Shown: piece after piece, positions 5,733 to 5,776 of the stretch | Numbering within the stretch: position 1 is the first letter of the stretch | Layout: each line of letters opens with the position of its first letter | Origin: Candidatus Onthocola gallistercoris | GTDB taxonomy: Bacteria > Bacillota > Clostridia > Lachnospirales > Lachnospiraceae | Direction of reading: 5' to 3' | NCBI GenBank assembly: GCA_018715345.1 | Contig: DVLT01000046.1 | Span: 62,001-126,000 of the forward strand | DNA: 64,000 nt | Notes under the pieces: model-generated | The model's input: only the letters and a program-made list of their open reading frames with translations | Database searches by the model: none | What the model was told of the DNA's origin: nothing | Position numbers and translations under genes: made by a program

Positions 5733-5776
5733 AAAACCTCCTGTTTGTCGCATAATACAGACAGACAGGAGGTTTT
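5733..5776 (+). promoter_or_regulatory. Long hairpin enclosing the eno ribosome binding site
   Basis: A 17-bp stem (5733-5749 with 5760-5776, one G-T wobble) and a 10-base loop lie between the eutQ-like gene and eno. The right arm contains the AGGAGG site (5767-5772) of eno and ends in TTTT four bases before the start codon. It can act as a weak terminator for the upstream operon and as a lid on eno translation when the RNA is read through. Confidence 0.75.

Follow-up and report, generated by a model that had tools for sequence, protein, structure and literature searches.

Enolase is taken to be a universal housekeeping enzyme, and a stable hairpin that buries the Shine-Dalgarno (SD) sequence of an enolase gene raises the question of which transcripts of that gene are meant to be translated. 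The hairpin lies immediately upstream of eno in the window (the whole stretch of 64,000 nucleotides from Candidatus Onthocola gallistercoris that was analysed; Table 1), where the initial annotation had described a 17-bp stem at 5733-5776 that ended in T bases like a terminator and held the whole AGGAGG of eno in its right arm with the start codon after it, an arrangement that it called unusual for a glycolytic gene. The hairpin exists at that place and is slightly longer, with 19 consecutive pairs including one G-U (5731-5749/5760-5778), and the remainder of the description holds: the SD is wholly contained in the right arm, the ATG follows at 5780, the terminator-like T run is present, if short, and such a layout is indeed unusual for a gene of glycolysis.

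Table 1. Features of the eno leader and the genes beside it (window positions; + denotes the forward strand).
Feature	Position	Strand	Remarks
eutQ-like cupin gene	5289-5723	+	PF06249, E 6e-42; stop codon 7 nt before hairpin
sigma-G-like -35 TGAATA (core GAATA 5729-5733)	5728-5733	+	fits GNATA; outer edge of left arm
Hairpin left arm (anti-SD), mostly in promoter spacer	5731-5749	+	ATAAAACCTCCTGTTTGTC; pairs with 5760-5778
Hairpin loop	5750-5759	+	GCATAATACA
sigma-G-like -10 CATAATA, in hairpin loop	5751-5757	+	7/7 to CAWAMTA
Hairpin right arm, holds SD, ends TTTTAT	5760-5778	+	GACAGACAGGAGGTTTTAT
Predicted forespore transcription start, ~5764	5762-5766	+	from distance to -10; in right arm
SD AGGAGG of eno, whole within right arm	5767-5772	+	7 nt before ATG
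eno, phosphopyruvate hydratase, 437 aa, clade B	5780-7093	+	TIGR01060 663 bits vs cut-off 300

The minimum free energy of the hairpin was -32.1 kcal/mol, against -10.7 +/- 2.6 for 200 dinucleotide-preserving shuffles (z -8.4, 0/200 as good), and pairing of the SD itself gave z -9.5 when the SD and the 3' part were held fixed and the upstream part alone was shuffled. The pattern AAACCTCC-N6-36-GGAGGTTT was found at 2 sites in the 2.39 Mb genome (reversed-pattern control, 0), and a genome-wide repeat was ruled out by there being a single other AAACCTCC...GGAGGTTT site. The T run 3' of the stem is short (TTTTATC; the runs in relatives' leaders are longer) and its T residues are paired with A residues of the left arm. 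A terminator consensus scan did not list the hairpin, its 10-nt loop exceeding the limit of the scan. The eno product retains the active-site acid and lysine motifs by eye (DEGGFAP, SIEDG, GDDFF, IKPNQ, SHRSGE) and is the sole enolase of its genome, which is 95% complete (protein search and HMM, a single match each).

The hairpin overlaps a promoter-like sequence. The Bacillus subtilis sigma-G consensus consists of a -35 GNATA, a spacer of 17-18 nt and a -10 CAWAMTA (PMC3416734, Table 4), and TGAATA-N17-CATAATA (5728-5757) scores 12/12 against it. A 12/12 match of the form GNATA-N17/18-CATAMTA was present in this leader and in those of three genus relatives, and in 4/3000 random 170-nt stretches of the window. 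A sigma-A promoter in this leader was set aside, the best sigma-A-like site within 150 nt upstream of eno scoring 8/12; the CATAAT of the -10, which matches the sigma-A -10 at 5/6, could possibly allow weak vegetative use, and an eno promoter may lie more than 300 nt upstream. Assignment to sigma-E or sigma-K was rejected by eye, the -10 elements fitting neither CATANNNTA nor CATACANT. The genus carries sigG, sigF, sigE and sigK-like genes as well as SASP genes; the best spore_sigG match (420 bits) lies below the NCBIfam cut-off of 457, and a sigF-like match is also present. The SASP genes, which are classic sigma-G targets, have promoters that mostly score 10-11 and share the same -10. On the strength of the consensus match, the clade-wide statistics and the co-occurrence with SASP genes presented below, eno most likely has a forespore promoter of the sigma-G, possibly sigma-F, kind.

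Placed together, promoter and hairpin suggest how the gene may be read. The anti-SD arm would occupy the spacer of the promoter, where few constraints on sequence apply. Polymerase arriving from upstream would copy the left arm, and its RNA would fold into the 19-pair terminator-like hairpin; termination of this read-through would be expected at the stem and T run, and any RNA that passed the stem would have its SD hidden, so that no enolase would be made from it. In the forespore, the sigma-G (possibly sigma-F) promoter would drive eno from a start in the right arm, giving a leader of approximately 16-19 nt with a freer SD, the left arm being absent from such transcripts because the predicted start (~5764) falls within the right arm. 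In folding calculations the unpaired probability of the eno SD rose from 0.00 in the long transcript to 0.66 in the short transcript predicted for the promoter, and across leaders the SD was not always open in predicted short transcripts (mean unpaired 0.63). We consider it probable that this is a composite element controlling a spore-associated enolase, with a hairpin that both terminates read-through and silences it; we infer from the sequence the dependence on sigma-G, the position of the start, the termination and the block to translation. The hairpin would then most likely separate two kinds of transcript (read-through and forespore-initiated) as a gate, not act as a switch within one eno mRNA.

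Three other genomes of the genus (G001, G002 and G003) contain the start of eno and reveal which parts of the element are kept. Common to all four genus leaders is CATAATA or CATACTA with GNATA 17-18 nt upstream, the relatives having GGATA, GTATA or GCATA as the -35 and CATACTA at the same position as the -10 (L002, L003, L031). The hairpin is kept in three of the four leaders (our own, G002 with arms AAAACCTCTTGTAT/ATACAGGAGGTTTT and G003 with arms AAACCTTCTGTT/AACAGGAGGTTT); the anti-SD changes in G002 and G003 are C to T, with a G-U pair preserved, and the upper stems differ. G001 has a REP-like inverted repeat in the spacer in place of the anti-SD left arm, and the promoter remains. The repeat is of REP/MITE type (GGGGACGGAGTTTTTGGC...), occupies L031 1-110 directly upstream of eno at a contig end, and has the forespore-type box GCATA at its edge. 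A search of the four genus genomes with the promoter pattern returned eno in each of them, and the pattern also precedes DUF1540, gpr-like, YetF-like/DUF421 and N/Q-rich small protein genes as well as RnfC-like and Por-gamma/delta genes. Raw genome-wide counts were modestly over the reversed control (28 vs 24, 63 vs 32), and the argument is therefore carried by conservation and context, not by lone matches.

The same relatives bear on the suggestion of the initial annotation that the hairpin can terminate transcription of the eutQ-like gene. This gene is missing upstream of eno in G003 (L003), where eno directly follows the repeat-protein gene and the hairpin is kept; because of this absence the eutQ-like gene is outside the conserved unit, and the hairpin is tied to eno, not to the eutQ-like gene. 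The terminator-like character of the stem is retained from that suggestion, but not its attachment to the upstream gene. In the window, the eutQ-like gene has no adjoining eut gene; its neighbours are a gene for a repeat-containing surface protein on one side and eno on the other.

Comparison across the family was based on 170 Lachnospiraceae genomes of different genera, all at least 97% complete except our own, of which 142 contained an enolase and 28 had none. Leaders (159) were taken from this set and the earlier genomes, and a tree was built of 179 enolases, in which two large clades were resolved: clade A (74 leaves, support 93, N-terminus ..IEKVIGREI..) and clade B (63 leaves, support 98), the latter including the window eno, which is accordingly not of the vegetative clade A type. 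With -35 boxes restricted to -95 to -42, sigma-G scores in clade B averaged 10.27, with 85% at 10 or above (shuffles 8.56 and 10.8%), and in clade A 8.46, with 13.5% at 10 or above (shuffles 8.55 and 10.7%); the Mann-Whitney p of 2.6e-15 for B vs A overstates independence, the genomes being related. When our own genus was removed, 84% of clade B leaders still scored at least 10. For sigma-A, scores of at least 10/12 were reached by 34% of clade A leaders (shuffles 7%) and 5% of those of clade B (shuffles 4%). In the genomes in which both copies were testable (n=13), the B copy had the better sigma-G score in 12/13 and the A copy the better sigma-A score in 10/11 untied comparisons. Spore-type leaders also occur in some of the smaller, basal lineages of enolase beyond clade B, and the regulatory type is therefore not strictly confined to one clade. 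In a few clade B members (L309, L013, L030) no forespore promoter close to the gene start is convincing; these may be switching back to vegetative use or have their promoter elsewhere.

Pairing of the SD beyond that of shuffles (p<=0.01, SD and 3' part fixed) was detected in 29% of clade B and 5% of clade A leaders, and strong SD-masking hairpins in 18/58 testable clade B genes and in 9 among the others. Between genera the arms include all four Watson-Crick pair types and several offsets beside a near-invariant SD, differences that amount to compensatory change. In 26/27, at least 82% of the left arm is upstream of the predicted start, the exception having a doubtful promoter call. In a variant, L219 (G017), the anti-SD arm is placed upstream of eno by about 90 nt, and the large loop encloses a further complete hairpin. 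The strong hairpin is found in about a third of clade B leaders, for which reason the SD block is not essential to the spore-type promoter; and with some two thirds of these leaders lacking it, the spore-type promoter is a firmer claim than the translational block.

The same leaders allow three other readings to be weighed. The hairpin could be no more than an intrinsic terminator for the upstream gene, its overlap with the eno SD being accidental; on this view the forespore promoter is real, but concealing the SD serves no purpose in itself. An A run before and a T run after the stem, the compact intergenic spacing and the many relatives whose leaders end GGAGG-TTTTTT-ATG are all as such a terminator would have them. 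We nevertheless judge this reading rather unlikely, as SD pairing goes far beyond shuffles in clade B and hardly so in clade A, the hairpin remains with eno when the upstream gene differs, and the position of the left arm in 26/27 leaders leaves read-through RNA masked and promoter RNA unmasked. Arm sequences that differ among genera, with only pairing and SD kept, make it barely credible that a dimeric regulator of the promoter uses the inverted repeat as its DNA operator: an operator would keep its sequence, even if the extent of the repeat, from the -35 to past the predicted start, would suit one. Lack of arm conservation between genera also weighs against the idea of the initial annotation that the hairpin is a translation switch for eno, here taken broadly as a vegetative switch acting on translation or transcription (riboswitch, thermometer or protein-controlled leader). 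A very stable SD-masking stem on the long transcript would fit such a switch, as would the usual view that a single-copy enolase needs expression in growing cells, but an Rfam search of the eno leader matched no family, the end of the upstream gene 7 nt before the stem leaves no room for a sensor domain, and clade B has no sigma-A promoter signal upstream, all of which renders it very improbable. What stands of the proposed switch is the hidden SD and a probable block to translation; an eno transcript lacking the left arm, which the initial annotation had named as the case against it, is predicted by the sequence from the -10 in the loop and a start near 5764. The lone Rfam match, to IS009 at 7066-7253, was below threshold and outside the eno leader.

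Under the preferred reading of a spore-associated enolase, the distribution of the two clades should be considered alongside sporulation. SASP genes were present in 58/58 genomes with clade B, 23/52 with clade A only and 5/28 without enolase, 23/28 of the enolase-less genomes having no SASP match; the Fisher p for B vs A-only was 1.1e-12, a value inflated by kinship, although each genome is from another genus. Clade B was the only enolase in 41/170 genomes, our own included, and a recheck with TIGR01060 found exactly one enolase in each of the 41 and none in 20 enolase-less genomes. Pyruvate phosphate dikinase (a possible source of PEP), tried as a marker of enolase-less growth, was uninformative, with matches in 67/67 genomes. 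These counts suggest prior loss of the vegetative enolase in many genera, with the enolase that is left belonging to the spore, in which case vegetative cells of single-copy species would contain little enolase. It counts against the reading that growth with the only enolase switched off places heavy demands on metabolism.

A purpose for a spore enolase is offered by Bacillus, whose spores store 3-phosphoglycerate that yields the first ATP at germination via phosphoglycerate mutase and enolase (PMC9864370). Forespore enolase packed into the spore would likewise probably serve to burn stored 3-phosphoglycerate at germination, when, as for the Bacillus depot, the enzyme is needed for ATP (PMC9864370). 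In Bacillus, however, the vegetative enzymes of lower glycolysis serve the spore, with one PGM for cell and spore (PMC9864370), whereas here a separate enolase lineage appears, from its leaders and distribution, to be dedicated to the spore. No earlier report of a forespore enolase was found in the open-access literature.

Rumen bacteria that have lost enolase, Butyrivibrio and Prevotella among them, have been described (PMC2914790, PMC6912079, PMC6118326), the loss of enolase in rumen Butyrivibrio and other Lachnospiraceae has been called curious (PMC6912079, PMC6118326), and sporulation genes are under-represented in the rumen set (PMC6118326). The likeness to the present case is of growing cells that would lack a normal enolase, with Butyrivibrio belonging to the same family; those papers describe absence of the gene, whereas here many genera keep one enolase with a spore-type promoter signal only. 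We are evenly divided on a wider proposal, by which a large part of the Lachnospiraceae would have no vegetative enolase, their enolase being solely a forespore-made spore enzyme shielded by promoter-embedded terminator/SD hairpins, and loss of sporulation would remove this last enolase and explain the enolase-less rumen bacteria. If production of clade B enolases is confined to the forespore, standard lower glycolysis is missing from many common gut bacteria during growth, and models that deduce their metabolism from gene content are wrong; rumen enolase loss would have a simple route, with the vegetative copy lost first and sporulation with its enolase afterwards.

The closest known counterpart of the hairpin is that of B. 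subtilis sigG (spoIIIG), where a stem of more than 20 pairs has been proposed to block translation of spoIIG read-through transcripts (PMC5942855, its refs 9 and 52) and cannot form in transcripts from PsigG (PMC5942855). As in the sigG hairpin, the SD of our leader lies in the stem and the left arm upstream of the predicted start; both systems would have a stem of approximately 20 pairs that hides the SD in read-through RNA only, the forespore promoter's own transcripts being predicted unable to form it. Unlike sigG, eno encodes a glycolytic enzyme, its stem ends in a terminator-like T run, its left arm lies in the promoter spacer with the -10 in the loop, and many genera repeat its arrangement with arm sequences that are unrelated; a gating hairpin of the sigG type would no longer be a feature of one regulator gene but a device that recurs. 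Folding of the sigG leader of the genus itself, in five genomes, revealed by eye no clear SD-masking stem of equal strength. In phage T4 gene e (lysozyme), the long early transcript hides the SD and a later promoter inside the hairpin frees it. This likeness is to a phage gene under a different polymerase programme, unlike eno.

Two further observations concern other promoters. In the same genus, GNATA-N17/18-CATACTA lies immediately upstream of RnfC-like electron-transport genes (L144, L160, L189 and L212, with a long RnfC-containing ORF in L212) and of Por gamma/delta genes (L152 and L209, a Por alpha-like gene being next in L209); RnfC-like and 2-oxoacid:ferredoxin oxidoreductase genes with such promoters suggest a wider forespore energy set beside enolase. 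Downstream of eno, a perfect sigma-A promoter (TTGACA-N17-TATAAT) is followed directly by a 10-bp hairpin and T run (window 7121-7182), an element that lies at the 5' end of the ilvN leader and resembles an attenuator or a 5' stabilising stem.
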